Part shown: in pieces, positions 1 through 35,840 of the stretch
How the letters are laid out: each line of letters starts with the position of its first letter
Numbering within the stretch: position 1 is the first letter of the stretch
NCBI GenBank assembly: GCA_024400565.1
Contig: JAKSMQ010000010.1
Coordinates: forward strand, 1 to 49,298
Source of the DNA: Bacteroidales bacterium
Lineage (GTDB): Bacteria > Bacteroidota > Bacteroidia > Bacteroidales > P3
Reading direction: 5' to 3'
DNA: 49,298 bases
The notes under the pieces: generated by a model
Told to the model about the DNA's origin: nothing
Seen by the model: only the letters and a program-made list of their open reading frames with translations
The model's database searches: none
Program-made: the position numbers and the translations under genes

Positions 1-264
1 CATAGCGTCCACATAGCGTCCACATAGCGTCCACATAGCGTCCACATAGCGTCCACATAGCGTCCATATAGCGTCCATATAGCGTCCACATAGCGTCCAC
101 ATTGGGGCTACCATTTGACCGCAAAGGGACAACTTTCGTTCCACAATAATTGCAGGTAAATACGCCCAAGTCTTCTCTAAGGGTTCATATAGCGACCTCA
201 AAATAGTATTGCAGACGTGGTTTGGTGGAGGCTATGTGCTGGCAATGTGCTCGCTATACAGATA
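1..264. repeat. 11-bp tandem repeat array, perfect then degenerate
   Basis: Nine head-to-tail copies of catagcgtcca (two begin with t) fill 1-99 and may continue beyond the window start. The 11-bp register persists in decayed form: cattggggcta at 100, ctttcgttcca at 133 and tatagcgacct at 188, all in phase with position 1. From 226 to 258 there are three 11-mers in the opposite orientation (tggaggctatg, tgctggcaatg, tgctcgctata). The unit is not a multiple of three and no reading frame is supported. Related units recur in two other intergenic regions. Confidence 0.9.
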
Positions 265-604
265 TTTTCTTGTCCAAACGGAATACAATCCGGAATCTTG
301 TATCAAAAGAACTCGATTCTTTGTCTTAGAACGTCTCAATTGTGGGTCGTAATGTGGCGAATTTAGAAGAAAAGAGTCTTAATAGGGTCGTTTTTTGTTG
401 TCTGTTTTGCAAAATAGGATGCCTTTGAAGTTGGTTTTTGGATTGTTTTTTATTCTGCGTAAAGTTTTGGTATTAAAATACAAAGGGGGGTACAAACTAT
501 AGTTTCGTTTTATTTATTTGGGGTCGGATTGCAAATATATCATGGATTTTGTGTAAATTTGCATTCAATTTCTGAATTACTAATTACGAAAAAATATAAT
601 CATT
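265..604. other. Intergenic, AT-rich, no gene seen
   Basis: No credible reading frame or RNA was found. The only sign of function is a possible promoter just before the lipoprotein gene: a TAnnTTTG match (taaatttg) at 554-561, with a weak ttg at 529-531 as a possible -33 element. Confidence 0.5.
554..561 (+). promoter_or_regulatory. Possible -7 box for the lipoprotein gene
   Basis: taaatttg matches the Bacteroidota -7 consensus TAnnTTTG, 43 bases before the start codon. The -33 element is poor, so this is tentative. Confidence 0.4.
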
Positions 605-1126
605 ATGAGAAAACACATTTTTACGCTTGCTTTAGCCCTGATGGGATTTTGCATGTCCTTTACTTCGTGCGAGAAGACTCCTATCGTAGACGATAATGAC
701 GGAGCTGTTTATGTGGGTGTCTACGACTTTACTATGGTATACGATAGCGTTACTACTTCTGATGGTACCTGGTTCTCTGAAGAGGACTACGAGTTCTTTA
801 CCAACAAGGTTAATCCTCCCAAGAACGGATACCTCACCATCACAGACGGCGACAACGGCAAACTGAATTTGACTGCAACCTTTATTGAGTCTACAGGCGA
901 AGAAAAACAGTTCTTTGCTACTACGGCATCTGTTGTTGACGGCGACCTCAAGATTGACGACTGTACTAGCGACTATTATTATTCATCTATCGAGGATTAT
1001 ATCCGTTTTGTGTTCCGCAATTTCTCCAACAACATGCCCAATATCTATTTCAAGAGTGTCTATACCATCAATCTTGGAGCGGACTACTCCTATCTTACCC
1101 ATTACGATTGCGTTAAACGCGACTAG
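605..1126 (+). CDS. Putative lipoprotein, unknown function
   Basis: This 173-residue protein has a lipoprotein signal: MRKHIF, a hydrophobic stretch, then FTSC with the lipid-accepting Cys at residue 22. It is therefore probably anchored to the outer membrane or exported to the surface. The mature part is rich in Asp, Tyr, Thr and Ser, with alternating polar and hydrophobic residues (for example GYLTITDGDNGKLNLTATF near residues 75-93) typical of beta-sandwich lipoproteins in Bacteroidota. I do not recognise a named family. The gene stands alone, with a repeat-bearing upstream region and a hairpin terminator directly downstream. The ATG at 605 follows an A-rich stretch and gives a complete signal peptide. 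Confidence 0.8.
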   Translation: MRKHIFTLALALMGFCMSFTSCEKTPIVDDNDGAVYVGVYDFTMVYDSVTTSDGTWFSEEDYEFFTNKVNPPKNGYLTITDGDNGKLNLTATFIESTGEEKQFFATTASVVDGDLKIDDCTSDYYYSSIEDYIRFVFRNFSNNMPNIYFKSVYTINLGADYSYLTHYDCVKRD

Positions 1127-1155
1127 GATTTTTTGGGGGGAACATCATAAATAGA

Positions 1156-1190
1156 GAAAGAGACGAAGCCTGAACTTCGTCTCTTTCTTT
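1156..1190. terminator. Hairpin terminator between lipoprotein gene and tRNA-Leu
   Basis: A perfect 13-bp stem (gaaagagacgaag at 1156-1168 with its complement at 1175-1187) with a 6-base loop is followed by ttt. It lies between two convergent genes and may stop transcripts from both sides. Confidence 0.75.
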
Positions 1191-1191
1191 G

Positions 1192-1273
1192 TGCGGATAA
1201 CAGGAATCGAACCTGCACTTCTCTCGAAACTAGATCCTAAGTCTAGCGCGTCTACCAATTCCGCCATATCCGC
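1192..1273 (-). tRNA. tRNA-Leu (anticodon UAG)
   Basis: On the minus strand the sequence folds as a class II tRNA. The acceptor arm is GCGGATA with TATCCGC and discriminator A. The anticodon stem CTAGA/TCTAG encloses loop CTTAGGA, so the anticodon is TAG, reading CUN leucine codons. The T arm contains GGTTCGATTCC, and a variable arm of class II length is present. No CCA is encoded at the 3' end, so it must be added post-transcriptionally. A well-formed promoter lies upstream (1377-1408), giving a leader of about 100 bases. Confidence 0.95.
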
Positions 1274-1376
1274 ATTTTTTGAACTCTTTGTATCGGCGTC
1301 AATAATGGAATAATCATTTCCTTTTCAGCCGTCTAATAGAGAATTGGTGGGCTTTGCCTGGTGGCTAAAGCGAGTG

Positions 1377-1408
1377 CAAAGATACTAACATTTTATAAAC
1401 CGACCAAA
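1377..1408 (-). promoter_or_regulatory. Promoter of tRNA-Leu
   Basis: On the minus strand, TTTG (complement of caaa at 1405-1408), a 20-base spacer, then TATCTTTG (complement of 1377-1384). This matches the Bacteroidota -33/-7 consensus and spacing. Confidence 0.75.
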
Positions 1409-1712
1409 TAAAAGTGCAAGGAAATAGCAAAAATTGATTCCTTTAGAGAGAAAGTATCAAAAGGTAAGAAGAATATTATAGTAATGTGTAACAAATGAAC
1501 CCTTGTGCCGTTTGTTTTGGAACAGCAGGTGGCATATCGGATTATGTGTGCCATTAGCCATCTTTTGTAAGAGAAAAAATTGACAATAGTTCCTTATTCG
1601 GATGACTCGTGGTTTGGTGGGGTCAGGAGTGGATTGCGTTATAAAAAGAATGATATTTAAGGAGAAAAAGTTATTAACATGTTAATTGTTGATTACTTCT
1701 TGAAAGTAACTG

Positions 1713-1741
1713 TTGAGAGTAAAAAATAAAGTGTATTTTTG
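1713..1741 (+). promoter_or_regulatory. Promoter of parE
   Basis: The -7 box tatttttg (1734-1741) matches TAnnTTTG, and a ttg at 1713-1715 can act as -33 with an 18-base spacer. The predicted leader before the ATG at 1817 is about 70 bases. Confidence 0.6.
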
Positions 1742-1816
1742 CATTTTGAAATCCTGATGCAAAGCTATTGGCTTTACGGATGGAGATTGTTTGTAATCAA
1801 TAAGTAAGATACGATA

Positions 1817-3718
1817 ATGGCAGAAGACGAAGGCTTGTTTCAAAGCACGAATATTGAAGACTACGGCGACGATAAGATTGTTCACCTTGAGGATATGGAG
1901 CATATCCGGTTGCGTCCGGGTATGTATATCGGAAAGTTGGGCGACGGGTCATCGCACGATGATGGTATCTACGTGCTGATAAAAGAAGTTATCGACAATG
2001 CTATTGACGAATTTACTTCTGGATTCGGCAAGAAGATAACTGTCAACATCAATTTTGCTGAACGCAAGGTTGCCATCCGAGACTATGGCCGAGGCATTCC
2101 TTTGGGCAAGATGGTCGAGGCTGTATCGAAACTGAATACCGGCGCAAAGTATGACAGCAAGGTGTTTCAGAAGTCGGTAGGTCTGAATGGTGTGGGTACC
2201 AAAGCCGTGAATGCACTCTCTAGCTATTTCAAGGTGCAGGCTGTCCGCGAAGGGCAGATGCGTGTGGCGGAGTTCTGCCAGGGTAAGGTGACTTCCGATA
2301 GCGGTATCGTTCCTTCATCCGAGGAGAATGGAACACTCGTGGAATTTGTTCCCGATGCCACCCTTTTTGGAAACTACCACTTTGTAAACGAATATGTGGA
2401 GAAGCGCATCTGGAACTATGCTTACCTCAATCGTGGTCTTACTCTTTACTATAACGAAAAGCGTTACTATTCCAAGAATGGTCTGCTGGACCTCCTGGAA
2501 CACAATATGGACAGTCAGCCTCTCTATCCTATAATCCACATCAAGGATGGAGATTTCGAAGCCGCTTTTACTCATGTAAACGGTCAGAGTAGCGACTATT
2601 ATTATAGCTTTGTCAATGGCCAGCATACCACCGAGGGCGGAACTCACCAGAGTGCTTTCCGCGAAGGTTATGCCCGTGTGGTAAAAGATTTTTACAAGAA
2701 GGATTGTGAGGCGGCCGATACCCGCCAGGGTCTGGTGTGCGCCTTGTGTGTCCGCATTCAGGAGCCTGTATTCGAGGCTCAGACCAAGACCAAACTGGGG
2801 TCTACCCATCTGGCACCCAACAAAGCCGATGGTACCAACGATAGTCCTGTTCTGAAGACTTACGTGCTTGATATCCTGAAGCGTCATCTCGACAACTTCC
2901 TCCACATGAATCCTCAGACGGCGGAGGCTTTGCTTGCAAAGATTAATGCCAATGAGAAGGAACGCAAAGAGATAGCGGGCATCAAGAAGGTTGCTCGAGA
3001 GAGCAGCAAACGTGCCAGCCTCAACAACCGTAAGCTTCGCGACTGTCATGTTCATTATAATACGAATAATCCCCGTCGACTGGAGACTACCATATTCATT
3101 ACCGAGGGAGATTCCGCTAGCGGCAGTATTACCAAAAGCCGCGATGTGGCAACCCAGGCAGTCTTCTCTTTGAGAGGAAAGCCCCTCAACTCTGTTTACT
3201 TGAACAAGGTTGCGGTATATGAGAACGAGGAGTTTAACTTGCTCCATAATGCCTTGGATATTGATGACGGTATTGAGAATCTTCGCTATAACAATGTTGT
3301 TATTGCTACCGATGCCGATGTCGACGGAATGCATATACGTCTTCTTCTGCTCACATTCTTTCTTCGATTCTATCCGGAATTGGTGCGCACAGGACATGTT
3401 TACATCCTCCAGACGCCTCTCTTCCGCGTGCGCAATAAGAAAAAGACAACCTATTGCTATACCGATGAAGAACGGTTGGATGCCATCAGCAATACTCCAG
3501 GCGCGGAGATAACCCGATTCAAAGGTCTGGGCGAAATCTCTCCCGAGGAGTTCTCCAACTTTATAGGCAAGGATATGCGTCTCGATCCTGTTCTGCTACA
3601 CAAGGATTTTGATATCAAGAGCGTACTCGAGTTCTATATGGGCAAGAATAATGACGGACGTCGCCAGTTTATTATGCAAAACCTTAGAGTAGAAGATGAT
3701 GAGTCGATAATGGTCTGA
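1817..3718 (+). CDS. parE: DNA topoisomerase IV subunit B
   Basis: ATPase subunit of topoisomerase IV, which decatenates replicated chromosomes together with ParC. The 633 residues hold a GHKL ATPase domain, with the catalytic Glu57 and Mg-binding Asn61 in EVIDNAIDE and an ATP-lid motif [14 protein letters not shown] near 123. A transducer domain follows, then a TOPRIM domain with EGDSASGS (Glu430) and DADVD (Asp499-Asp503). The SASGS in place of the SAGGS of GyrB, the SLRGKPLN motif and the short length (GyrB is about 650 residues or more in this phylum) fit the Bacteroidota ParE branch. parC is not adjacent, although the two are neighbours in many bacteria. The next gene downstream encodes an AT-hook protein with its own promoter. 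Confidence 0.93.
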
Positions 3719-3775
3719 TGAATCGGCCTGCAAAGAATTAGAATAAAAAAACAATACAATATATCACTTAAGTTT

Positions 3776-3783
3776 TATACTTG
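3776..3783 (+). promoter_or_regulatory. Possible -7 box for the AT-hook protein gene
   Basis: tatacttg differs from TAnnTTTG by one base and lies 21 bases before the start codon. It suggests the gene can be transcribed independently of parE. No clear -33 element. Confidence 0.4.
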
Positions 3784-3804
3784 CACAAAATTTCAAACTG
3801 AGAT

Positions 3805-4554
3805 ATGGCCAAGAGAATACATAAAAGAAATTTAATAGTCAGCTACAACAACCTCTCCGATGAACTGAAAGAGTTATTCAAAACAATCTATCCTGACGGC
3901 TACAGAGACCATCTCCAGCGTACTGAAAAGCCTAATGGCGATGTCATCTTCTGCGCTCCTATGGAGACCGAGGATACTGTCTATATGGTTAAGTTTGAGG
4001 TAAAAATTGATACGGGTTTGGTTGAAGCCGACCTTGATCGTGATATCTATGGCGATGATAAGGACGGTGACGACGATTTCGCTCCCATCAGCGAGGCTAT
4101 GGATAAAGATGAAGGTCTTGAACAGGGCGTAGGCGAGTTACGCAACGGCGACTATGAGAATTTCCTTAACGACAGTTCTGCCAAGAAAGAGTTCGCTCTG
4201 GCTGCTGCTGATATTGCCGCAGAATTGGGCAAAGATGATGACGACGATTTCGATTCATACGACGATGATGAAGATGACGATGATGATGAAAGCAATGATG
4301 AACCTAACGATGACGATTTGATGGATCTCGACCTGGATAATTTGATTGGCGATGCAATGGTTCTTGAGAATGGCTTGCTGGTAGAAGCTCCGCAAAAACC
4401 CAAACGTGGTCGTCCCGCAAAATCCAAGACAGAAAAGACTCCCAAGGCCTCTAAAACTGCAAAAGAACCCAAAGCAGCCAAGGCGACAAAAGAACCCAAG
4501 GCAACAAAGGTAAAGAAAGAACCTAAAACGCCCAAGGCCAGCAAGAAGAAATAA
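3805..4554 (+). CDS. Acidic protein with AT-hook and histone-H1-like lysine tail
   Basis: The 249-residue protein has four visible parts. Residues 1-75 form a folded domain (NLIVSYNNLSDELKEL, YPDGYRDH, KPNGDVIF) that resembles a conserved Bacteroidota hypothetical family; I cannot name it. Residues 76-178 are acidic, including an Asp-dominated run at 144-178. Residues 198-204 contain PKRGRP, the core of an AT-hook minor-groove binding motif. Residues 205-249 are a Lys/Pro/Ala/Thr tail with repeated KEPK and PKASK units, like histone H1-type proteins. No signal peptide is present, so it is cytoplasmic. A DNA- or nucleoid-associated role is an inference from tail composition and from the parE neighbour. 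The start fits the upstream promoter. Confidence 0.85.
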   Translation: MAKRIHKRNLIVSYNNLSDELKELFKTIYPDGYRDHLQRTEKPNGDVIFCAPMETEDTVYMVKFEVKIDTGLVEADLDRDIYGDDKDGDDDFAPISEAMDKDEGLEQGVGELRNGDYENFLNDSSAKKEFALAAADIAAELGKDDDDDFDSYDDDEDDDDDESNDEPNDDDLMDLDLDNLIGDAMVLENGLLVEAPQKPKRGRPAKSKTEKTPKASKTAKEPKAAKATKEPKATKVKKEPKTPKASKKK

Positions 4555-4572
4555 ATACTGCAATAAATAACT

Positions 4573-4612
4573 CAAATGGAAGAATCCTCATTGAGGGTTC
4601 TTCCATTTGTTT
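4573..4612 (+). terminator. Rho-independent terminator after the AT-hook gene
   Basis: An 18-base arm (4573-4590) pairs with 4592-4609 with a single G-T wobble and a tiny loop, followed by ttt. The stem is unusually long for a terminator. Confidence 0.8.
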
Positions 4613-4665
4613 AAGTAGATTCATACCATCATTCTATATAGGAATAAAGATATGACAAGGAAAAT

Positions 4666-4700
4666 AAAAGGGAACTCCCGAAAAGAGGTTCCCTTTTATA
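4666..4700 (-). terminator. Terminator of the ferredoxin gene
   Basis: aaaagggaac (4666-4675) pairs with gttccctttt (4688-4697). Read on the minus strand it follows the ferredoxin stop codon and ends in a T-rich tract. Confidence 0.7.
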
Positions 4701-4719
4701 TTTTCTGTACTATGTTAAA

Positions 4720-4887
4720 TTATGCCTCTACGATAGCACCAGTGGGGCATACATCAACGCAAGTACCGCAGCTAGCGCAAGCGTCAGCGTCGATTTTGTA
4801 GATGTCGCCTTCGGAGATAGCTCCAACAGGGCATTCGCCGATGCAAGTACCGCAAGCAGCGCAGGAGTCAGTGATTTTATAAGCCAT
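4720..4887 (-). CDS. 2[4Fe-4S] ferredoxin
   Basis: A 55-residue bacterial-type ferredoxin carrying two [4Fe-4S] clusters, serving as a soluble low-potential electron carrier in anaerobic metabolism. The two classic motifs are CAACGTCIGECP (Cys 9, 12, 15, 19) and CASCGTCVDVCP (Cys 37, 40, 43, 47), giving the usual pseudo-twofold repeat. A longer frame opens at 4944, but the -7 box at 4922-4929 lies inside it, so the start is the MAYKITDSC methionine at 4887. That leaves a leader of about 30 bases. The gene is monocistronic with its own promoter and terminator, which fits a strongly expressed carrier. Confidence 0.95.
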   Translation of the reverse strand: MAYKITDSCAACGTCIGECPVGAISEGDIYKIDADACASCGTCVDVCPTGAIVEA

Positions 4888-4921
4888 TTTGTTTACGTTT
4901 TTTAGGTTAATAAATGATTTG

Positions 4922-4952
4922 CAAAAATACGCATTTTCTAACAATTAGCAAT
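4922..4952 (-). promoter_or_regulatory. Promoter of the ferredoxin gene
   Basis: On the minus strand, ATTG (complement of 4949-4952), a 19-base spacer, then TATTTTTG (complement of 4922-4929). The position rules out the upstream start codon at 4944. Confidence 0.7.
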
Positions 4953-5227
4953 GATAATGTTGAAATATTTTTTTGTATAGACAATAATTGCTTTGAATGA
5001 TAACAGATTGCATCTGCCAAAGACTGGTAGAATACATCATCCTAGAGGTACTTTTTCGACTATTATAACCTCTGTTTTTAGCAAATTGACCTGACTAGGA
5101 TGTACTTCAAGATGTATAATTAGTCGTGGTTAATAACTGTTCAATCTTCGGATATCCCATTCTCATTCTTTTAATGGAAAGAATGAAGCCTCGAGAATAG
5201 ATTTGGTGTTTCGATAGGTTATTAATG
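4953..5227. other. Intergenic, AT-rich, nothing assigned
   Basis: No reading frame with family resemblance, no RNA and no repeat of the 11-bp type was seen. It separates the ferredoxin promoter from the gpsA terminator. Confidence 0.5.
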
Positions 5228-5262
5228 AAAAAGCGCAGGAGATATGCCTACGCTTTTTATTT
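5228..5262 (-). terminator. Terminator of gpsA
   Basis: aaaaagcg (5228-5235) pairs with cgcttttt (5251-5258), with a further agg/cct pairing inside. On the minus strand it follows the gpsA stop codon and ends in a T run. Confidence 0.7.
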
Positions 5263-5281
5263 AGTTTATACAAGTGATATT

Positions 5282-6271: not shown

Positions 6272-6349
6272 AGTTGATTGTTTTTTGATTGAAAAATGCA
6301 CGGCCAGCGGTTGTACTAATACAATTCTTTCCGCCGTGAAAATGTATTG

Positions 6350-6357
6350 CAAAAATA
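6350..6357 (-). promoter_or_regulatory. -7 box of gpsA
   Basis: Complement of caaaaata reads TATTTTTG. It is separated by only 32 bases from the plus-strand -7 box at 6390, so the two divergent promoters share their upstream regions. Confidence 0.55.
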
Positions 6358-6389
6358 CGAATAATTATTCACATGTAAAAAAAAATAAG

Positions 6390-9657: not shown

Positions 9658-11508
9658 ATGAAACAAAGAAAACAGATAGAAACTCATAGTGTATGGGTTT
9701 ATGTTGCAATAAAATTCCTTGTAGCATATTTGATGTTGCTCATTACCCAAATTGGTTTTGCATGGCACAATCATGGTTTGTTTACCATTGAGGATAGTCA
9801 TGAGGTATGGGGAATAATACTTGGAAACCTTCATTTTGGCTTGTCGGGAACAGCTATGGTCCTTTGGCCTATGGTGTTAATGATGGCGCTCCCTTTTGAT
9901 TTCCGTTTCAAGAGAGGTTATCAAGTAGCTGAACGTTGGGTGTCTGGTGTAGGAGTGGGCTTGATGTTGTGTGCTAATATCGCTGATTCTGCATATTATC
10001 AGTGGGTATTACGACGTACAGCGGCTGATGTATTCAGCTATGCTCTTAAGAATTTTGGAGGACAGGGGTCTCTTATGGGGCATTTTGTGACTGATTTTTG
10101 GCCATATTACCTCACATTCTTTGTGATGATTGGCGTATGGATTTGGTTTAGTTGTCGTATAAGACTGGTGTCTAATACAAATAGTGATAGAGGAATAGTC
10201 CATAAAGTGATTTCTTGTCTACTTATGGTATTTCTCGTTCTCACAGCAGTTAGAGGCGGTTGGATAAAACAGCATAAGCCTCTTTCACCGATAGATACCA
10301 GCCGCTACTGCAAGGCATCAAACTCTTCGTTAGTAATCAATACTCCATTCTCAATTATCCGTACTTTAGGTAATGTCTCTCACCTCAGCCGATTGGAGTA
10401 TTTCGATGATGATAAGGTTGATAAAATTTTCAACCCTGTATGTCTGCCAGATGGAAAAAATGACGAGCAGAAACTTAATATCGTACTTGTAATATTGGAA
10501 GGGTTTTCAGAGGAATATATGGGGGCTATCAATCAGACAGGCGAGACATATACACCTTTCCTCGATCAGTTGGCTCAGAAGAGTATGGTGTTTAAAGGCC
10601 GTAGCAATGGCAAACGATCTATTGAGTCTTTACCCTCCCTTTATTTAGGTATTCCCTGTTTGATGGACGAGGCATATATTACTTCTTCTTATTCACTTAA
10701 TAAAACCCTCTCGTTACCTCAGATATTGAAGAATCATGGCTATGCAACAGCTTTCTATCATGGTGCGCATAATGGTTCTATGAACTTTGATGGATTTACG
10801 CATGGCATAGGTATTGACCGCTATGTAGGGCAGAATGAGTATCCCGATCAGAATGACTATGATGGAAATTGGGGTATCTTTGATGAGCCGTTCCTCAAGT
10901 TTGTAGCAACAGATATCAGTCAGTTGAAAGAGCCCTTCTTTAGCTCTATTTACACAATCTCCTCTCATCATCCATACACTATCCCAGAACAGCATAAAGG
11001 TCGGTTTAAAAAAGGAGAAATTCCCTTGCTTGAAACCATCGGATATAGTGACTATGCGATGAAATGTTTCTTTGAGGAGGCTCAGAAGCAGCCTTGGTTT
11101 GATAATACCATTTTTATTATTACAGCAGATCATCCAGCCCAACCTCTTTCAGCATATTACAGAGAATATGCCTATAATGTTCCTATGATGATATATAGTC
11201 CTATGCATATTGAGCCTAAGCGAGTAGACAAACTATTCCAGCATACAGATTTGATGCCTACTGTGATTTCAATGTTAGGTTTGAAAGATACATGTCTGAG
11301 CTTCGGCCATAATGCAATGGAAGAGGGTAAAGGTTTTCATATTGCTTATCCTGGCAACTACTATATTCTTGAAACTTCCGATCATCTTGTCTTTTTTAAT
11401 GGGGAGATGGTAACCTCTGGAAATGCAACCAAGCAAGAAGAGAATATGATAAAGGCTATTGTGCAGCAATTCAATAATCGCATGATAGATAATCGACTTA
11501 TGCCATAA
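9658..11508 (+). CDS. LTA-synthase-like membrane sulfatase (alkaline phosphatase superfamily)
   Basis: The 616 residues start with a membrane domain of about five hydrophobic segments (roughly residues 13-35, 55-80, 92-115, 146-166, 182-198). An extracytoplasmic sulfatase domain from about 270 onwards follows. The metal-site motif is VLVILEGFSEEY (Glu281), the nucleophile region is SNGKRSIESLPS (Ser321, where Gram-positive LtaS has Thr), and the second metal motif is TADHP (Asp491, His492). In Gram-negative bacteria this family transfers phosphoglycerol or phosphoethanolamine groups to envelope lipids or glycans; the precise acceptor is unknown. It has its own promoter and a strong terminator, and converges with the tamB/GT9 operon. 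Confidence 0.88.
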   Translation: MKQRKQIETHSVWVYVAIKFLVAYLMLLITQIGFAWHNHGLFTIEDSHEVWGIILGNLHFGLSGTAMVLWPMVLMMALPFDFRFKRGYQVAERWVSGVGVGLMLCANIADSAYYQWVLRRTAADVFSYALKNFGGQGSLMGHFVTDFWPYYLTFFVMIGVWIWFSCRIRLVSNTNSDRGIVHKVISCLLMVFLVLTAVRGGWIKQHKPLSPIDTSRYCKASNSSLVINTPFSIIRTLGNVSHLSRLEYFDDDKVDKIFNPVCLPDGKNDEQKLNIVLVILEGFSEEYMGAINQTGETYTPFLDQLAQKSMVFKGRSNGKRSIESLPSLYLGIPCLMDEAYITSSYSLNKTLSLPQILKNHGYATAFYHGAHNGSMNFDGFTHGIGIDRYVGQNEYPDQNDYDGNWGIFDEPFLKFVATDISQLKEPFFSSIYTISSHHPYTIPEQHKGRFKKGEIPLLETIGYSDYAMKCFFEEAQKQPWFDNTIFIITADHPAQPLSAYYREYAYNVPMMIYSPMHIEPKRVDKLFQHTDLMPTVISMLGLKDTCLSFGHNAMEEGKGFHIAYPGNYYILETSDHLVFFNGEMVTSGNATKQEENMIKAIVQQFNNRMIDNRLMP

Positions 11509-18909: not shown

Positions 18910-18997
18910 TCGGCCAACGTTCGGCCACTATTGCCGAAAGAGTGTGCTACCTTTGCCGAAAGAGTGTGCTGTTATTGTAATGGTATTGTTGGGGCAT
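18910..18997. repeat. 11-bp-periodic array with a perfect 22-bp-spaced duplicate
   Basis: Eight consecutive 11-mers, each beginning with t. The pair tcggccaacgt and tcggccactat comes first, then tgccgaaagag twice (18932 and 18954) alternating with tgtgctacctt and tgtgctgttat, then tgtaatggtat and tgttggggcat. The 18-base string ttgccgaaagagtgtgct is repeated exactly, 22 bases apart (2x11). No reading frame explains it. Confidence 0.75.
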
Positions 18998-22539: not shown

Positions 22540-23272
22540 ATATTTTCAATAGGACGGATTGTTTTCAGAGGAATGTGTCATGTATAAAACTTATATTTAT
22601 TTGAAGATGTAGTATCAGGTCGATTGTCAAATAGGTTGGATAAATGTAAAAGTATTGTAGACTATACAACGGCATACGATATTGTTTGTTACAAGGTATA
22701 TGAATTTTTTTGTGATGAGCGGAAGTTAAGGTTATGATAATCTGATTAGGATTCGAGGCTGTTTTGAGGGTGTAAGTAGCATGGTTAGGGGGCGTAAGTA
22801 GGCTGTTTGGGTTGGGTAAACAGTATGTTGGGTCGGGGTAAACAGCCTGTAGGCAGCATATAGGCTCCACTTTCGGTCGGGTTTTGGCTGCTTTGGTGGA
22901 CGCTATATGGACTCTAGGTGGACGCTAGGTGCTGTTTGTGTGGAGGGAATATGAGTTGTCGTGAAGATTGGTCTGTTGGTTTCTATTGTGTGCAAAATTG
23001 CTTATTTGAACGACTGATGTAGGGTTCTCGGACAGATAGCTTAGGGTGGGGTAGGGGATTGTGTTGGAAGAAGGGAACTTATGCTTGTCTGGGACAGAAT
23101 AGTTGCCCTTTTTTATCAATAATAAGATGCTTTGGTTTGGGTGTGGTAAGTTGAATATTGTCAGGATGTTTGGCGTGTCAGGAGTGGCGTACGGGCGTCA
23201 AGAGCGAACCTTTGGGATTTGTTTTTTTTATAAAGTTATTCACTATTTTTAATGTATGTCGGAAAAATAATG
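22540..23272. other. Long intergenic region carrying a periodic array
   Basis: No gene is supported. The central part (22750-22947) is the 11-bp-periodic repeat listed separately. A further stretch at about 23019-23046 (gtagggttctcggac, then atagcttaggg) resembles units of the 35393 array. The strand is strikingly G/T-rich from about 22740 to 23120. Confidence 0.6.
22750..22947. repeat. 22-bp (2x11) degenerate tandem array
   Basis: Nine 22-base units run without gaps. Four start with gtaa at 22772, 22794, 22816 and 22838, each exactly 22 bases apart. They are followed by units starting at 22860 (ataggctccac), 22882, 22904 and 22926, and a related unit precedes them at 22750. Two successive units end in taggtggacgc/ttggtggacgc. 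The 11-mers gtaaacagcct and ataggctccac recur unchanged near 35400, and tggacgcta units are the inverse of the array at 1-99. Confidence 0.8.
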
Positions 23273-23280
23273 TATCTTTG
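23273..23280 (+). promoter_or_regulatory. -7 box of tsaD, giving an almost leaderless mRNA
   Basis: tatctttg, a perfect match, ends 11 bases before the ATG at 23291. Transcription would start near 23286, leaving a leader of about five bases. This excludes the upstream in-frame ATG codons at 23252 and 23270. Confidence 0.6.
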
Positions 23281-23290
23281 CATTCCGATT

Positions 23291-24298
23291 ATGACTACCA
23301 TACTTGCTATAGAATCCTCATGTGACGACACTTCGGCTGCCGTCCTTCGCAACGATAGAATACTTTCCAACGTAATCGCCTCCCAGAAGGTGCATGAACA
23401 ATACGGCGGCGTTGTACCCGAACTGGCTTCGCGTGCCCATCAGCAGAATATCGTACCCGTTGTTGATGCCGCCATTCGTCAGGCGGGCATCAGCAAGTCC
23501 GACCTGGATGCTGTGGCTTTCACCCGCGGACCGGGATTGCTGGGCTCTCTGCTGGTAGGGGTTTCCTTTGCCAAGAGTTTTGCTCAGGCGCTCGATATTC
23601 CCCTCATTGAGGTTAATCACCTTCAGGGACATGTGCTTTCGCACTTTATCAAGGAGAACGACGAGAGCAAAGTGCCTCAGTTTCCGTTCCTCTGCCTCCT
23701 GGTGTCGGGCGGACATACGCAGATTATTCTTCTGAAATCGCATTTCGAGATCGAAATCCTGGGTCAGACTATCGACGATGCTGCAGGCGAAAGTATCGAT
23801 AAGGCGGCCAAGATTATGGAACTGGGCTATCCTGGAGGCCCCATAATAGACCGGTTGGCCAAAGAGGGTAACCCCGATGCTTTTCAGTTCGCTACGCCCC
23901 ATATCCAGGGGTTGGACTATAGCTTCAGCGGCATCAAGACCTCGTTCCTCTATTTCCTTCGCGACCATCTGAAGGAGGATCCCGATTTTATCGAAAAGAA
24001 CAAGGCCGATCTGTGTGCATCTATACAGAAATGCATAGTGGGATTTCTGATCAAGAAATTCGAGAAGGCTGCCCTTCAGACAGGTATACGTCAGGTGGCT
24101 ATTGCCGGAGGCGTGAGTGCCAATTCCTATCTTCGTTCGGAGTTGGAGCGCATAGGCAAGAAGCATCATTGGGATGTATTTGTGCCTAAGTTCCAGTTCT
24201 GTACCGACAATGCGGCCATGGTGGGAATAGCCAGTTATTTCAAATACCTCAAGGGCGAGTTTGCCGATATTTCCCTGCCTCCCTATACCAGAGGATAA
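23291..24298 (+). CDS. tsaD: tRNA N6-adenosine threonylcarbamoyltransferase
   Basis: Catalytic subunit that transfers threonylcarbamoyl from its AMP adduct to A37 of tRNAs reading ANN codons, working with TsaB, TsaE and TsaC. The 335 residues start MTTILAIESSCDDTSAAV, the ASKHA-type nucleotide-binding opening. The metal-binding NHLQGHVLSH (His110, His114), LVSGGHTQI, GYPGGPIIDRL, DYSFSGIKT and CTDNAAMVG motifs follow. The frame extends 13 residues upstream, but the promoter falls inside that part. It is first in an apparent operon with porP, a porE-like gene and an FAH-family gene (43, 31 and 10 base gaps). Confidence 0.96.
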   Translation: MTTILAIESSCDDTSAAVLRNDRILSNVIASQKVHEQYGGVVPELASRAHQQNIVPVVDAAIRQAGISKSDLDAVAFTRGPGLLGSLLVGVSFAKSFAQALDIPLIEVNHLQGHVLSHFIKENDESKVPQFPFLCLLVSGGHTQIILLKSHFEIEILGQTIDDAAGESIDKAAKIMELGYPGGPIIDRLAKEGNPDAFQFATPHIQGLDYSFSGIKTSFLYFLRDHLKEDPDFIEKNKADLCASIQKCIVGFLIKKFEKAALQTGIRQVAIAGGVSANSYLRSELERIGKKHHWDVFVPKFQFCTDNAAMVGIASYFKYLKGEFADISLPPYTRG

Positions 24299-29072: not shown

Positions 29073-29082
29073 GACGGGAGGC

Positions 29083-29679: not shown

Positions 29680-29738
29680 TGTTGTGTTTTCTTTTTTATT
29701 AGATAACGTAGTGTTGGGTTAATTATTGCGTATGTTGA

Positions 29739-31583
29739 TTATTTTAGAACAGAAATGCGCTGGAAGGATTGACCTTTAGCGGTAGATATGGCCACAATAT
29801 ATAATCCGGAACGAAGGTTTTCGACCAAAATGGTCTGTTCGTTGCGGTTGTTACACTTGGTCTGTTTGATCAATTTACCCTGCATATCGAAGAGTTGAAC
29901 TGCGTTGATAGGCGATTGTGAGGTGATAGTAAATCTGTCTGTTGCAGGGTTGGGATAGAGACTAATCTGAGTTTCCTGGTCAGCGTTCTGGATACCTACA
30001 TAGGTGGCTTCGAAATGTTCGGAAAGGTCAGCATTAAATACCTGTCGTCTGGTGATATCGGGGTCATCGTTAGAGATGAATGCTACAATTTTACAACGCC
30101 AGGCTGCACAGGTGGGAGGAATCGTTCCGTTGATGGTAACCTGGTAGGTAGAGTCGCTAAGAGGCGACAATGGTTCGTCGTAGAGAATGGCTCTAACGAC
30201 ATTGTCGGTACGGGAGTTTGAACTATAGCTTCCGTATCCGTCTGCCCATACGCTATCTTCTACCAGAAGGACAGTCAGTCTGGGATTCTTAGTGTTAAGG
30301 TTGATAGCAGAAGCTCCGTTGATGGTTGCTTGGATGTAGCGTGCTGAAGGATTGAACGAGCATTCGCTGATAGTGATTCCAACGGGTGCAGGGATGGCTG
30401 ACATTCTATCGGCTACAGATGCCAGAACGCCTGCGGCATACAGGTTATAGAATGGGTTGCTTCCGCGTCTTTGGAATATGGGGGCTCTATCAAAGGCAAC
30501 AGCTGGCAGCTGAGGACTTTCAAACGTATTGTAGAGTTGCGTAGCTGCCGCATTTGAAAACTGGTCGCTGGGGTGATAAGCAATCCAGATCAGATTATCG
30601 TTTGAAGAAAGGATATTTCTCAGTTTGGAATCCAGATGTCCCGAAATTGTGTTGTTTGCATCGGCAAACTGCTCTATCAGCGTGTGGCGCTCCCATGCTG
30701 TCGGTACGGCAGGCATTACGGGAAGAATAATGGAGAGAGTGTTGTTGTCTACAAAATCCTGGCTTGAGCTTGAAAGAGAAGCAATGGTAACCTCTATCTC
30801 GTGATAGCCTTCGTCGAGAACTATGGATGTCGTATCCTCGAAGTTGAAATATTCTCCGTTTACGACATTGATTCCGCTTACAGTCATGCCAGGGTAGGGG
30901 GTACCATCAATTGTGTAGGAGAATGAGAATCCTGTGAGTGGCAATTGGCTGCGATTGGTAACACGACCTCCAATATGGAATACCGAGTCTGGCTGAACGA
31001 ATGTGGGTACATTAATCTGTGTCAGTTCCAGTTCCTCGCCATTCAGGTTGCAGATACGAACATTGTCGACAAGCAGAAGATTCATATCGTCGGAGTTCTG
31101 TACAATGGCAATCCATACTGTATCTCCAACGTAGTCGTCCAAACTGGCATAATAAGTGTGGAAGGTTGTGTCGCAATGGTATTGCTGGAGTAATGGGGTG
31201 TCTTCAAAAAGAGTTCGCAAAGAGTCTCCTCGAGTGGAGATTCTGACTTCAAATCCATCAGGATAAGATCTTTCCAGACAACGTGCTTCCATCGCAAAGG
31301 AGAGACCTGTGCTGTTGATGAGGACGGGTTGGAGAATCAGCCATCGGTCAGCTGGATTGGCAACAAGAAACCAAGAGGTGCTGGCTGCAGAAGGAGCAGG
31401 ACATCCGTATTGAGTGTTAGTAGTCCAAGCGTCTCTGTAGACACTATGATGGGCTGTGTTCTCGTCGTTGAACATCTTCCATTCGGAAGGAATTCCATCG
31501 TTGAATGTTTCGAAAAGCAATACTTGAGCGTTGCAGGCGAATCCTGCTAACAACAAAGTAATCAAGACTAAAAACTGCTTCAT
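29739..31583 (-). CDS. T9SS cargo protein: cleaved-adhesin-like and Omp28-related domains, type A sorting signal
   Basis: The 614-residue protein starts with a signal peptide (MKQFLVLITLLLAGFACNAQ). A cleaved-adhesin/jelly-roll domain follows (about 20-185; LLFETFNDGIPSEWKMFND, WFLVANPADRWLILQPVL, IAIVQNSDDMNLLLVDNVRI). Next come an Ig-like region and an Omp28-related thioredoxin-like region (LIEQFADANNTISGHLDSKL, about 305-430). The type A C-terminal sorting domain is at about 540-614 (SLYPNPATDRFTI, LFDMQGKLIKQ, LRSGLYIVAI). It should be exported by the T9SS and attached to the surface. The frame opens at 31616, but the -7 box at 31614-31621 overlaps that codon, so 31583 is the start. Confidence 0.9.
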   Translation of the reverse strand: MKQFLVLITLLLAGFACNAQVLLFETFNDGIPSEWKMFNDENTAHHSVYRDAWTTNTQYGCPAPSAASTSWFLVANPADRWLILQPVLINSTGLSFAMEARCLERSYPDGFEVRISTRGDSLRTLFEDTPLLQQYHCDTTFHTYYASLDDYVGDTVWIAIVQNSDDMNLLLVDNVRICNLNGEELELTQINVPTFVQPDSVFHIGGRVTNRSQLPLTGFSFSYTIDGTPYPGMTVSGINVVNGEYFNFEDTTSIVLDEGYHEIEVTIASLSSSSQDFVDNNTLSIILPVMPAVPTAWERHTLIEQFADANNTISGHLDSKLRNILSSNDNLIWIAYHPSDQFSNAAATQLYNTFESPQLPAVAFDRAPIFQRRGSNPFYNLYAAGVLASVADRMSAIPAPVGITISECSFNPSARYIQATINGASAINLNTKNPRLTVLLVEDSVWADGYGSYSSNSRTDNVVRAILYDEPLSPLSDSTYQVTINGTIPPTCAAWRCKIVAFISNDDPDITRRQVFNADLSEHFEATYVGIQNADQETQISLYPNPATDRFTITSQSPINAVQLFDMQGKLIKQTKCNNRNEQTILVENLRSGLYIVAISTAKGQSFQRISVLK

Positions 31584-31613
31584 GATACGAGGAATATAAG
31601 ATTTTGTAGAGTG

Positions 31614-31621
31614 CAAAGATA
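31614..31621 (-). promoter_or_regulatory. -7 box of the T9SS cargo-nadD operon
   Basis: Complement of caaagata reads TATCTTTG. Transcription would start near 31608, about 25 bases before the ATG at 31583. Confidence 0.6.
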
Positions 31622-31664
31622 TGATTTCTTTTTGAATTAGAAAAGTTCTTCTTTCAAAGGATGA

Positions 31665-32186
31665 TCAGTCTTCTAGTGCCTTGATACCTTTCTTGGCAAG
31701 GGCAAAGAGACTGGGATCAACATGACAGTAGCCCTGTGGATTCTTGTCGAGATAGTCCTGATGTGCCTCATGGGCAGGATAATAGTTTCTCAAGGGTAGG
31801 ACTTCAATAGCTATAGGCTTGTTGTACTTCTGCTGGAGTATGGCAATTGCCTCGCGGATTATCGGCTCGTCCTCCTGCTCGACATAATAGATACCGGTTC
31901 TATACTGGTCTCCCTCGTCTTCTCCCTGTTTGTTAACGGATGTTGGGTCAATTGTCTTGAAATATAGACGGAGAATTGTATTCAGACTTACCTTGTCGAC
32001 GTCATATACGACCTCGACTGTCTCTGCGAAACCTGTAGTATGTTGGCATACCTGCTCATAGGTCGGGTTCTCTACATCTCCGTTGGCAAATCCCACCTTT
32101 GTTTCCTCTATTCCGGGTATCTGTTTCAAGAAATGCTGGGTTCCCCAATAGCATCCGCCTGCTAAATATATTCTTTTTCTATTCAT
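31665..32186 (-). CDS. msrA: Peptide methionine sulfoxide reductase MsrA
   Basis: Reduces methionine-S-sulfoxide in proteins and free Met, using a catalytic cysteine. The 173 residues contain the MsrA signature GCYWGTQHF with catalytic Cys12 (Tyr in place of the more usual Phe), VGFANGDVENPTYEQVCQHTTGFAETVEVVYD, and the active-site segment DPTSVNKQGEDEGDQYRTGIYY. There is no MsrB domain and no signal peptide, so it is a stand-alone cytoplasmic enzyme. It lies downstream of gldJ on the same strand, with a terminator between them. Confidence 0.95.
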   Translation of the reverse strand: MNRKRIYLAGGCYWGTQHFLKQIPGIEETKVGFANGDVENPTYEQVCQHTTGFAETVEVVYDVDKVSLNTILRLYFKTIDPTSVNKQGEDEGDQYRTGIYYVEQEDEPIIREAIAILQQKYNKPIAIEVLPLRNYYPAHEAHQDYLDKNPQGYCHVDPSLFALAKKGIKALED

Positions 32187-32222
32187 AATATAAGCCAGTA
32201 ATCAGTTGACAAATAAGAGAAC

Positions 32223-32254
32223 AAAGCCCCTCTTGGGAAAGGAGGGGCTTTAGA
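32223..32254 (-). terminator. Terminator of gldJ
   Basis: aaagcccctc (32223-32232) pairs with gaggggcttt (32242-32251). On the minus strand it follows the gldJ stop and ends in t-rich sequence, separating gldJ from msrA. Confidence 0.78.
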
Positions 32255-32271
32255 TATGAATTAGCTAAAGA

Positions 32272-33834
32272 TTAGCGTTCGGTACGGGGTCCAAGACGAT
32301 CCATAGCGCAACGGAAACCAATCCAGCTGGTGGAGCGATCCTGGTCGTAGAAGCGGCGGGTACCGGCCTGCATCCAGTATGCACGGTCGTTCCAGCTACC
32401 ACCCTTAACTACGCGTACTTTGTTGCCCATAAGAGAGGAGATAGGATCCTGAGCAGTACCCTTAGCAACACGGCGGTACATCATATTGGTAACGCTGTCG
32501 GGGTTGTTCATTACGTTCTCTTCATCTTCGTAGCCAGAGCCGTCTTCGTCCTCGTCGGGATCAGATACCCACATCTCAATACGCTGCTTGCCATCATAGT
32601 CGTAGATGTTGGAAGCATAGTCACCATCGAGGTAGTTGATGTTGTCAGCCTGACGGTAGTTGCGACGGTTGAGGTCGTCGTCAACATTGCGGTAGATGAT
32701 GCCACCGGTAGTATCGTTGATAGCAATTTCTTCGTCGATATAGGTAGCCTGTTTGTAAACGTTACCACGGAAGGGGTCCATATCTTCGCCACCAATGGGG
32801 TTAGCGTCTTTACGGTAAACGTCCTTGGTCCATTCACTAACATTGCCTGCCATGTGGTAGAGACCGTAGTCGTTGGGGAAGTACCACTTAACGGGAGCGG
32901 TGTAATCCCAACCGTCGTTGAGGTTACCAGCTACGCCCATAGCGTCGCCACGGCTACGCTTGAAGTTAGCGAGGAACTGGCCATAATATTTCTTGTTTGC
33001 ACTACGTACGCTGGTACCAGCCCAAGGATAGGTCTTGTGCTCGATAATACGCTCATCGTAGGTGTTTCCGATAAGGCCGAGAGCTGCGAATTCCCATTCA
33101 GCTTCGGTGGGAAGACGGTAGCTGGGGATGAGGATACCATCGGTACGACGTACCTGACGGGGTTCGCCACCGGCAGCAGGGTCATAGTTGGTAAGCTCTT
33201 TGCCTGCTTCGCCACGGAACTGACCGGCAAGATAAACATCGGTACGGAAAGCGGTCTCGCCACGGAGTTCGGTCTGGTCAAGAACGATGATGCCACGATC
33301 AACAAGAATCTTCTCGTTTACGCGGTCGGTACGCCAAATACAGTATTCGTTTGCCTGCTCCCAAGTAACGCCTACAACGGGATACTGGTCGTAGATGGGG
33401 CTCTGGAAATAGAAATCAACAAAGCCTTCGCGCCAAGCCAGCTTATCACGCCAAGCGTTGGTGTCGGGGTAGCAAGCACGTACGCGTTCGGGATATTCCT
33501 CGCCATAAGCACGGGTCATCCAGTATACATACTCACGATAAGCTACGTTGGAAACCTCGCATTCGTCCATGTAGAACGAAGAAACGGTAACGGTATGAGC
33601 TACGTTGTTCCACTGGTAGCGAGCGTCGTCGCTTACGCGACCCATAGTGAAAGAACCACCCTCGATGAATACGAGGCCGGGAGCTGTCATCTGCTCGTCA
33701 ATGGGGGAAACTTCAAATCCACCCCACTCAGAGTCGTTGTAGTTCCAACCTGTGGTGGCTGACTTCTGTTTGCTGCACGATGCAAGAATCATTGCAGAAA
33801 CCATCAAGAAGCATGCGATTTTTAGGATTCTCAT
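32272..33834 (-). CDS. gldJ: Gliding motility / T9SS lipoprotein GldJ
   Basis: A 520-residue outer-membrane lipoprotein of the formylglycine-generating-enzyme (SUMF1) fold. The lipobox LASC sets the lipidated Cys near residue 20. Features matching GldJ, not GldK, are the opening ATTGWNYNDSEWGGFE, then APGLVFIEGGSFTMGRVSDD, RYQWNNVAHTVTVSSFYMDE, YPVVGVTWEQANEYCIWRTD, SYRLPTEAEWEFAALGLIG and GGSWNDRAYWMQAGTRRFY. Two Asp/Glu-rich inserts lie at about 340-450. GldJ stabilises GldK and is needed for gliding and secretion in flavobacteria. Here it is encoded just after a porP gene, 129 bases downstream on the same strand; no porKLMN cluster is in the window. Confidence 0.92.
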   Translation of the reverse strand: MRILKIACFLMVSAMILASCSKQKSATTGWNYNDSEWGGFEVSPIDEQMTAPGLVFIEGGSFTMGRVSDDARYQWNNVAHTVTVSSFYMDECEVSNVAYREYVYWMTRAYGEEYPERVRACYPDTNAWRDKLAWREGFVDFYFQSPIYDQYPVVGVTWEQANEYCIWRTDRVNEKILVDRGIIVLDQTELRGETAFRTDVYLAGQFRGEAGKELTNYDPAAGGEPRQVRRTDGILIPSYRLPTEAEWEFAALGLIGNTYDERIIEHKTYPWAGTSVRSANKKYYGQFLANFKRSRGDAMGVAGNLNDGWDYTAPVKWYFPNDYGLYHMAGNVSEWTKDVYRKDANPIGGEDMDPFRGNVYKQATYIDEEIAINDTTGGIIYRNVDDDLNRRNYRQADNINYLDGDYASNIYDYDGKQRIEMWVSDPDEDEDGSGYEDEENVMNNPDSVTNMMYRRVAKGTAQDPISSLMGNKVRVVKGGSWNDRAYWMQAGTRRFYDQDRSTSWIGFRCAMDRLGPRTER

Positions 33835-33963
33835 AATTTATAGTGTTATTTTTTATTCTTATAATATATAGGACATCAGAAGATGTGATCGTTCAAGTTG
33901 AGATGCGTGTTTCTAATAATAACGTAAAAGAACAGATAAAAGTTTCGTTACGCCCGATTATTA

Positions 33964-34968
33964 TTAGAAGGAAGGACAGCGGATAGCTTTAATCTTATGC
34001 TTGGCCTGGGGGCAGGGGAGCATAACGCCAACGCTGATTTCGTGTGCGCCGGAGGTGTTGTTGGCAAGTTTGGAAACGGTAACGTCGTAGGAGTAACCAA
34101 TCTTGAAGTAGTCCTGCTGTACACCAACCTGGAAAATAAAGGCATCAGCATTCTCAAGACCCTGACGGAACCAGCAACCAACGAGGAAGGGCATCCAGTC
34201 GAGGTAAACACCATAGTTGAAATAGTGGAAACCTGCCTGATACTGATAAACGAAGTTGGGGGAGATAACGGGAGTACCTAAACCGAGAGAGGAGGTACGG
34301 CGCTGTTCTTCGGAGATGTTGATAAGTGCACCTACGTTGCCGGTGAACTTGATGGGCAGTTTGGTTACACCATAGAATCCATTGGAAGGCTGGGTAAGGT
34401 GGGATGCGGAGAAACCGGCATACCAGTTGGAGCCGTAAACCAAAGCACCTGCAGCAAAGTCAAGATACCACTTGCTGAGCTCTTCGGGAGCCTGGGCAGA
34501 GGTCTGGCCTATGAAACCATTGGTGGGGTCAATCTGGTCGGGGAAACGGAGATTGTCCCAATCGAGGTATTCGTTAGTGAGACCACCCTGGAGAGCGGCA
34601 TTAATCCAAATGTCGCGACCTACCTGAAAACGGAAAGAATACATCACGGCAGCAGCTGTGGTGGAGAGAGCACCATGATCGCCCTGACGGTCGGTCATAA
34701 TATAACCGCCAAGACCTCCATGGAGGTCGTTGAAATACTGGTCATAGGAAACCGATGCGGTGGTGAATGCGCTCACCAGAGCAGGCCACTGGTTGCGGAA
34801 GTTCAGCGCAATGCGGGGGCACACCTTTGAACCGGCAAATGCGGGGTTCATATAGAGTGGGTTTGCATAGAACTGGGAAAAGATGACGTCCTGCGCCTTT
34901 ATGCCCTGTCCTGTTCCAAGCAGGATGGCTGCGACGAGAATGATTCTTTTTAGAGTTTTCATGTTCAT
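33964..34968 (-). CDS. PorP/SprF family type IX secretion outer-membrane protein
   Basis: A 334-residue outer-membrane barrel protein: signal peptide (to about residue 25), then QDVIFSQFYANPLYMNPAFAGS, the conserved PorP opening with FSQ, NP and NPA. ALNFRNQWPAL and amphipathic strands follow, ending DVTVSKLANNTSGAHEISVGV with a C-terminal CRCPSF-like tail (AIRCPSF). It is clearly more similar to canonical PorP than the copy at 24342, and heads a pair with gldJ. The start could be the first Met or the third residue (MKTLKR). A weak -7 box (complement of 35001-35008, TAATATTG) lies about 32 bases upstream. Confidence 0.92.
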   Translation of the reverse strand: MNMKTLKRIILVAAILLGTGQGIKAQDVIFSQFYANPLYMNPAFAGSKVCPRIALNFRNQWPALVSAFTTASVSYDQYFNDLHGGLGGYIMTDRQGDHGALSTTAAAVMYSFRFQVGRDIWINAALQGGLTNEYLDWDNLRFPDQIDPTNGFIGQTSAQAPEELSKWYLDFAAGALVYGSNWYAGFSASHLTQPSNGFYGVTKLPIKFTGNVGALINISEEQRRTSSLGLGTPVISPNFVYQYQAGFHYFNYGVYLDWMPFLVGCWFRQGLENADAFIFQVGVQQDYFKIGYSYDVTVSKLANNTSGAHEISVGVMLPCPQAKHKIKAIRCPSF

Positions 34969-35000
34969 AATAGAGTGTAAAATGAGCCTTAATTAGACGG

Positions 35001-35008
35001 CAATATTA
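35001..35008 (-). promoter_or_regulatory. Possible -7 box of the porP-gldJ unit
   Basis: Complement of caatatta reads TAATATTG, one mismatch to TAnnTTTG, about 32 bases before the porP start codon. Confidence 0.4.
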
Positions 35009-35840
35009 CGAATTTTTTTTCATATAATAATAAATTCTTATCAACTATTTTGTATGTTGTTGTTTTTAAGCAGAATATTTTTTGCTGGATTGTCGTTTTC
35101 TGTTGTTGTTTTTCTTCTTTTGAAGGCTCTGTTTCGCAAAATTTGCCATTTTGAAGCCCCTTTTTCCTTGTTTGTTATTATTGTGCATAGATTCAGTCTG
35201 TTGCATCGAGTTTGTTGTATGGTTTTGTCAAATGTCAGAATTGAGAAAAATTTGTTGTTTAGGTCCCCGATAAAGCTCCTGTAAATAGTCCATTTTGTTT
35301 ATTGAAAAAAGGTTGGTTTTGGCTCCCTAAATAGAGAAAGCAATCCCTGTTTGCAAATCTCATTCATCAAGGTAGGGAATTGTTCATAGGGAGTAAACAG
35401 CCTGTAGGGTCCCTCTTCTCGGCACATAGGCTCCACGTAGCCTCGCAAAATCATTATAATTGTGCTGCCAAAGTGGAGTTAATGTGGACGCTAAGTGCTG
35501 GCAATGTGGATCCATGGTGGATGTTGTATTCCGACTATGCCAGAATTGTCGCATTAAGTTAAAATCAACTAAGCAAAGAAATATGATTGAATAACTCAAA
35601 TAATGATGAGTTGATGACTTTGAAGTGAATTGTTATGAATTGAAAGTAAGATATTTGAAACGATATTGAATGGGATTGATTCGTCTTTCATTTTGACGTG
35701 AGAATTATGTTAAACGAAGTCTGTTAAATTGATTGGGAATTCCGATAAGACGAGATGTAAAAGTTGCCTTGGCAGAACCGTCTTTAATCAAAAAAGAAGA
35801 AAAAAAGTCATTATTATTTTATTATGTCAAAAATTAATAT
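35009..35840. other. Long intergenic region with a repeat array
   Basis: No gene is supported. A T-rich frame at 35054-35284 encodes a very hydrophobic peptide without a family match and is best explained by composition. The middle holds the 11-bp-periodic array (35393-35557). The end carries the WG-protein promoter. Confidence 0.55.
35393..35557. repeat. 11-bp-periodic degenerate array
   Basis: Fifteen contiguous 11-mers can be read from gtaaacagcct (35393) through gtagggtccct, cttctcggcac, ataggctccac (35426), then aatgtggacgc (35481), taagtgctggc (35492), aatgtggatcc (35503) and atggtggatgt (35514). gtaaacagcct and ataggctccac also occur in the 22750 array, there 22 bases apart and here 33. 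The string gtgctggcaatgtg (35495-35508) is identical to 236-249. Confidence 0.75.

Follow-up and report, generated by a model that had tools for sequence, protein, structure and literature searches.

Short repeats dispersed between bacterial genes are known in several forms, and the arrays of 11-bp units considered here resemble each of these only in part. The arrays were found in a contig (C2, 49,298 bases; JAKSMQ010000010.1, assembly GCA_024400565.1) of a Bacteroidales bacterium, the whole of which is called the window below; the assembly, G000, comprises 1.89 Mb in 57 contigs and is 71.6% complete. Other G numbers denote further genomes, mostly relatives from the same genus, and L numbers denote sampled stretches. 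The cyanobacterial STRR repeats are short head-to-tail words with a period of 7 in many intergenic regions. PhoB/OmpR boxes and ParR-parC iterons have 11-bp head-to-tail recognition units but do not form dispersed palindromic families, and Drosophila Foldback elements, which are eukaryotic, much larger and of other periods, possess inverted arms of tandem sub-repeats. The REPIN/REP and RAYT system is described as one of short palindromic intergenic elements with inverted halves, present in many copies per genome and in part species-specific (PMC3116915; PMC3733652), and sets of heptamer direct repeats such as TAACTGA as short head-to-tail words in many intergenic regions, also in five Bacteroidetes (PMC4679880). 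CarH and CarA bind one face of the DNA at tandem 11-bp direct repeats, their operators having about three to five repeats at promoters with the motif TnnACA (PMC9304148); CarH-type proteins are a precedent for tandem 11-bp repeats that can be bound on one face.

Like REP/REPIN elements, the arrays are inverted pairs of short repeats dispersed between genes in many copies. Unlike them, their arms consist of head-to-tail 11-bp units in a fixed phase, they bear no general GTAG/CGTC tag (by reading, the words of G012 and G022 contain GTAG, those of G000 CGTC, and the G114 consensus GTATCGTACAA neither), and RAYT (Y1_Tnp) was not found in the array-bearing genomes G009 and G000. TAACTGA and STRR repeats have period 7 and one conserved word, whereas the arrays have a period of 11, with two blocks in inverted orientation, and their words vary by species. 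Tandem 11-bp direct repeats are shared with CarH/CarA operators, but the arrays number tens per genome, are mostly palindromic and lie outside any evident regulon; TnnACA occurs in 6 of 87 left words of G000 and, by reading, in one unit of G056 (ATACTGAACAA), and is absent from the consensus units of G012, G114 and G023. Head-to-tail 11-bp units are also common to PhoB/OmpR boxes and ParR-parC iterons, from which the arrays differ in being dispersed and palindromic; inverted arms built of tandem sub-repeats recall Foldback elements, compared with which the arrays are bacterial, far smaller and of period 11. A literature search, with preprints and most subscription papers outside its range, returned no description of such arrays, and the findings suggest an undescribed DNA element in strict step with the helix.

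The arrays form a real, phase-locked family of dispersed, chromosomal, mostly intergenic elements in many species of one genus. Four of them lie in the window, at 1-264, 18910-18997, 22750-22947 and 35393-35557, and all four are confirmed as period-11 arrays. Their scores (mean identity at lags 11, 22 and 33) are 0.573, 0.465, 0.441 and 0.401, respectively, against 0.250, 0.249, 0.287 and 0.248 for dinucleotide shuffles, none of 1000 shuffles matching the observed value in any case; positions 103-264 alone score 0.367 against 0.249 (0/1000). Among the other periods from 6 to 19, none exceeds 0.30 in any window array. Tandem Repeats Finder (TRF) reports 9.3 copies of CATAGCGTCCA at 1-102 with 97% matches. 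The initial annotation had given these coordinates and pointed to words common to several arrays, and direct reading agrees with it: gtaaacagcct stands at 22838 and 35393, ataggctccac at 22860 and 35426, gtgctggcaatgtg at 236-249 and 35495-35508, and tggacgcta in both the 22750 and the 35393 array. Its argument that coding does not explain a period that is not a multiple of three is borne out for the window arrays; a coding origin was rejected for the 22750 array as well, where a 101-amino-acid open reading frame (ORF) over 22565-22870 has no Pfam match.

In three window arrays, a left block of TAGCGTCCAC-type words stands opposite a right block of reverse-complement words, with a centre between them. 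Phase was counted over 417 kb of G000 with the left-word pattern TA[AG]NN[AT][CG]CAC, drawn up after the arrays had been seen. The left-left spacing is 0 mod 11 in 87 of 88 word pairs (up to 300 bp), and the left-to-right spacing is 3 mod 11 in 101 of 101 pairs (up to 250 bp) from 21 arrays; independence cannot be claimed for the pairs and is more nearly true of the arrays. The innermost gaps measure 14, 25, 36, 47, 58 or 124 bp, and the reverse order, right word before left, occurs once. Since all gaps are 3 mod 11, the 11-bp step runs on through variable, degenerate centres. The three window arrays of this main class obey the same rule (gaps of 124, 25 and 47). A simple minisatellite is rejected for the main class because the blocks are inverted and phase-locked; the term "minisatellite-like" in the initial annotation is therefore too weak, all the more so as other species use the same architecture in other words. 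That annotation had also missed the layout in two inverted blocks, its fixed phase and the spread of the arrays through genome and genus.

The first window array opens with a left block on the forward strand (1-100) of nine CATAGCGTCCA/TATAGCGTCCA units recognised by TRF, truncated by the contig start and with its last CAC ending at 100. A 124-bp centre (101-224; 3 mod 11) with degenerate units, still 11-periodic by lag score, leads to the right block GTGGAGGCTAT GTGCTGGCAAT GTGCTCGCTAT on the reverse strand (225-257, directly read, the right word beginning at 225). The 22750 array has a degenerate forward left block at 22753-22870, e.g., GTAAACAGCCT GTAGGCAGCAT ATAGGCTCCAC, whose left word ends at 22870, a centre of 25 bp (22871-22895; 3 mod 11 by word phase) and a reverse-strand right block GTGGACGCTAT ATGGACTCTAG GTGGACGCTAG GTGCTGTTTGT GTGGAGGGAAT (22896-22950) supported by reading, TRF and word phase. 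The 35393 array consists of the forward left block GTAAACAGCCT GTAGGGTCCCT CTTCTCGGCAC ATAGGCTCCAC GTAGCCTCGCA (35393-35447, left word ending at 35436), a centre at 35448-35459 (best dyad centre 35466, score 0.47) and the reverse-strand right block TTGTGCTGCCA AAGTGGAGTTA ATGTGGACGCT AAGTGCTGGCA ATGTGGATCCA TGGTGGATGTT (35460-35525), with a matched-word gap of 47, i.e., 3 mod 11. The remaining array (18910-18997) is of a mixed class in which TTCGGC/GCCGAA words alternate with GTGCT words: at 18910-18986, where it was traced by lag score (dyad score 0.46), TCGGCCAACGT TCGGCCACTAT face TGCCGAAAGAG TGTGCTACCTT TGCCGAAAGAG TGTGCTGTTAT, the right side advancing in 22-bp steps.

Throughout G000, the two-unit pattern CATAGCGTCCACATAGCGTCCA (up to three mismatches) matches 81 places on the forward and 58 on the reverse strand, 139 in total, and its reversed-pattern control none, which places the units of the first array far above the chance frequency that the initial annotation had named as a possible refutation; its other refuting condition, shuffled sequence that gives a similar period, did not come about either. 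A unit-blind scan of 416,614 bases (the window and 20 stretches, six of them selected for holding matches) yielded 37 regions above the lag-11 threshold of 0.42: 27 intergenic and classifiable, 6 overlapping ORFs and 4 at edges. Of the six, three in L056 and one in L062 are repeats within long ORFs, and two lie in short doubtful ORFs, one being window 22565-22870; some of the 37 fall outside the described word classes, and T-rich sequence accounts for a few. Contigs C1 and C12 with most of C23 (263,671 bases, lag-call threshold 0.46) give 14 lag calls at period 11 and one each at periods 10 and 13, and inverted-lattice calls there number 17 at period 11, 3 at period 10 and none at period 13; an array density of about one per 20 kb is estimated for G000, at least 2 of the 14 calls being coding repeats. 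A viral source was rejected: exact two-unit patterns retrieved 6, 0, 2 and 0 stretches from the viral contigs, and these 8 stretches hold no array. Each of two related viral contigs has one AT-rich call of 0.48 away from the pattern match. A collection scan of named genomes matched 5 stretches, none with an array. The organism was placed in Bacteroidales by its protein families (PorP/SprF and BspA-type LRR proteins), along with weak TamB matches to Phocaeicola, Bacteroides and others of this sort.

The words of the window are nearly missing from the genus, being matched (up to two mismatches) in 2 of 98 relatives at 3 and 1 places. Other members carry words of their own: GTGTTCGGCTT and CTAGCGCCCAC in G003 (the nearest relative as judged by TsaD, 91%); TTGTACGATAC in G114 (125 places, control 1); TTCTTCAGTAG in G023 (245 places, control 3); TATTACGSTAG (TATTACGGTAG) in G012 (144 places, control 0); TTGTTCAGTAT in G056; TTTAACGTTCG in G002; and CCTACCAACTC in G022 and G009. 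Left-right pairs share one phase in 32 of 32 cases in G114, 29 of 30 in G023 and 73 of 76 in G012. This agreement is weaker evidence than that from G000, because many copies in the relatives have one common centre; a count with the word C[CT][AT]CGG in G023 was discarded as too unspecific to show phase. The elements are limited in size, the information of each arm staying high for four units in G114 (12 elements), for five in G012 (17) and for six in G023 (10) before it falls, and, by eye, the outward-read units of G012, G114 and G023 (CTACCGTAATA, GTATCGTACAA and CTACTGAAGAA) have a related core in one dyad frame. The place of the 22750 array, upstream of tsaD, is also occupied by an array in G003, where the words are CAAGCCGAACG and the upstream gene differs; at the 18 further TsaD loci that were read, calls were weak at most.

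In 26 stretches from the genus (498,300 bases, chosen without prior knowledge of arrays; inverted-lattice threshold 0.5), period 11 accounts for 14 calls, period 12 for one, and periods 10 and 13 for none. Two of the 14 are doubtful, with an A+T content of about 75%, and noise is higher at short periods (21, 5 and 6 calls at 7, 8 and 9). An outgroup sample of 20 stretches (388,500 bases), taken from nine further genera in the family and eight further families in the order, in which sister genera are thinly represented, gave one period-11 call, a 22-bp repeat of another kind, along with 9, 8 and 1 calls at periods 7, 8 and 10.

Orthologous spacers point to turnover of the elements. Of six aligned between G114 and G056, one with conserved flanks has CAATGAAAGAA units in G114 and CAATGGTTAAA units in G056, one holds a nearly identical element in both, three have an element in only one genome with little or none in the other, and one is unclear. 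At one orthologous site, nearly identical coordinated substitutions occur in each of three right-arm units. At the spacer at 85.6 kb of contig C2 of G114, by eye, G022 has its own palindrome, and G002 and G036 have an apparent half array; comparing G002 with G036 (identity about 79%) produced no element pair of use. Copies with a common centre and arms stand at unrelated loci in G114, and 17 distinct loci read in G012 are nearly identical; these many similar elements show copying.

The pairing of arms was examined in G000 for 10 elements only (odd parity, exact in-frame TGGACGCTA): the identity is 0.611 within an element and 0.632 between elements. Within a word class, own-arm identity does not exceed cross-arm identity for the majority of the high-information units in G114 and G023, being slightly above it in one unit each. 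Own-arm identity that is not above cross-arm identity tends to disfavour an RNA hairpin; the matched arms of G012 and the comparison over mixed word classes, given below, point the other way. As for neighbouring genes, the tandem, convergent and divergent counts are 14, 7 and 6 for 27 arrays of G000 (background spacers 57, 20 and 19), 10, 1 and 9 for 20 elements of G012 (39, 18 and 14), 5, 3 and 2 in G023, 1, 3 and 2 in G114, and 4, 1 and 1 in G056. Elements of G012 may prefer divergent spacers, a preference not seen in G000, G023, G114 and G056.

The phase rule is best accommodated by a lattice at the level of the DNA, which a protein would read with one subunit for each turn. The arrays would then act as double-stranded DNA on which a putative protein places one subunit per 11-bp turn along one helix face, so that two opposed filaments might meet at the dyad. 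The elements would spread by copying between loci, with homogenisation keeping the words of a genome alike and replacement changing them over time, perhaps following the specificity of the putative binding protein. Between transcription units they would most probably serve as nucleoprotein anchors or insulators, and not as part of a promoter or terminator, since no gene orientation is consistently preferred across genomes. Both roles considered in the initial annotation, helix-phased protein binding and a spreading element, fit the findings, although the binding is something we infer. Our confidence in the reading as a whole, i.e., helix-phased elements acting as protein-read double-stranded DNA, copied between loci and with words rewritten by species, is evenly divided.

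Several observations speak against this reading. One strict binding protein does not explain several word classes per genome. In G000 and G003, the words of the TTCGGC class run mostly in one direction and lack a fixed left-right phase (in G003, same-orientation pairs are spaced 0 mod 11 in 74 of 86 cases, and 5 left-right pairs spread over four phases), the CATTG class keeps one phase in 10 of 12 pairs, and, by eye, the words of G000 and G022 do not fit the core common to G012, G114 and G023 in the dyad frame. When word classes are mixed, own-arm exceeds cross-arm identity in G023 (0.711 vs 0.373), G012 (0.698 vs 0.382), G056 (0.667 vs 0.404) and G114 (0.811 vs 0.712), because both arms of an element use one class. 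In G012, 38 of 42 elements have the same variant in both arms (shuffle mean 18.7, maximum 29 of 10,000), as pairing or clonal copying would give; clonal copying explains both this match and the excess over mixed classes.

A bolder form of the protein-read lattice, which we put forward tentatively as possible, would be a chromosomal system specific to the genus. At tens of sites between genes, a rapidly evolving DNA-binding protein would polymerise on the opposed 11-bp blocks by adding one subunit for every turn, and its specificity would co-evolve with the words into species dialects on the same helical lattice. If correct, this would offer a natural experiment on the joint change of a dispersed DNA site and its reader, the geometry (11 bp, dyad and phase) staying constant across species of the genus while the sequence is rewritten, and a little-studied lineage would gain a chromosome-wide intergenic element of the REP/BIME kind with a testable helical-phase rule.

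Among the alternatives, the one that survives best, though we consider it rather unlikely, takes the elements for selfish miniature mobile palindromes, akin to REPINs or miniature inverted-repeat transposable elements, without a host role; the 11-bp units would be sites of a transposase acting in trans, and the words would follow the transposase. The at least 45 similar palindromes of G012 (42 paired and 3 single rows among the 100 places listed), the G114 copies at unrelated loci and the spacers occupied in only one of G114 and G056 argue for it. However, such a model does not require phase to be kept through variable centres, and no clean insertion boundary or target duplication is readable, the spacers of G114, G056, G002, G036 and G022 being different and too diverged. 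An autonomous element with separated arms was sought in 8 stretches around seemingly unpaired matches, all of which have both arms close, and no copy with a gene between its arms was seen. The Y1/HUH transposase (PF01797; other transposase families were outside the search) is present in 13 of 18 genomes and was not found in G009 (95% complete) and G000, which both carry arrays, nor in G016, G041 and G050; Y1 transposases do not track the arrays, and RAYT-driven REPINs are not supported as a general answer.

RNA hairpins serving as terminators, 3′ end stabilisers or attenuators are improbable. One turn of A-form RNA is 11 bp, the complementary arms are long and in G012 nearly perfect, the matched variants of that genome suit pairing, and some elements adjoin apparent intrinsic terminators by eye. 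Yet the arm comparison within word classes speaks against hairpins in G000 and mostly in G114 and G023, elements occur in divergent spacers (6 of 27 classifiable in G000, 9 of 20 in G012), and the gaps, which range from 14 to 124 bp and are without exception 3 mod 11, would be meaningless for loops of free length. Rfam 15 gave no match to arrays above the gathering threshold in five sources, the only hits being two tRNAs.

Of similarly low probability is a purely mutational product, in which neither selection nor binding would take part and the arrays would come from slipped-strand amplification by 11 bp at a time, together with correction of quasi-palindromes. Homogenisation within arrays, seen in the coordinated substitutions of three right-arm units, speaks for it, but it leaves unexplained why many species with different words have a single period, why unlinked loci have words in common and why arrays are rare in the other genera sampled. 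Chance or coding periodicity, to which the 4 of 37 calls inside long ORFs could be ascribed, is practically negligible and already refuted for the four window arrays, given the shuffles, the 27 of 37 intergenic calls and a period not divisible by three.

Some minor observations should also be mentioned. The start of contig C2 and the end of C50 (8779-8834) both lie within a CATAGCGTCCA array in the same orientation, so that assembly breaks fall in arrays, and the two contigs may adjoin. The period-11 signal at L056 7310-8174, in a long ORF with low-complexity repeats, is a coding false positive of the scan, and the outgroup stretch L292 (G140, another genus of the family) has near 10828 a 22-bp repeat of the palindrome TTTGGTATATACCAAA. 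Purine-rich, 11-bp-periodic imperfect palindromes in G056 and G023 (L115:8684, L117:15979, L121:1909 and L122:7905) may represent a further class, and stretches of G056 contain period-7 inverted lattices in raised number. TsaD (window 23252-24298) is matched in two pieces (about 5-138 and 137-348) in G001, G004, G007, G012, G025, G066, G067, G069 and G106, the short extra stretch between them being apparently an insertion in a longer frame. Finally, a heptamer AACTTAA repeat is located at window 42455-42484.

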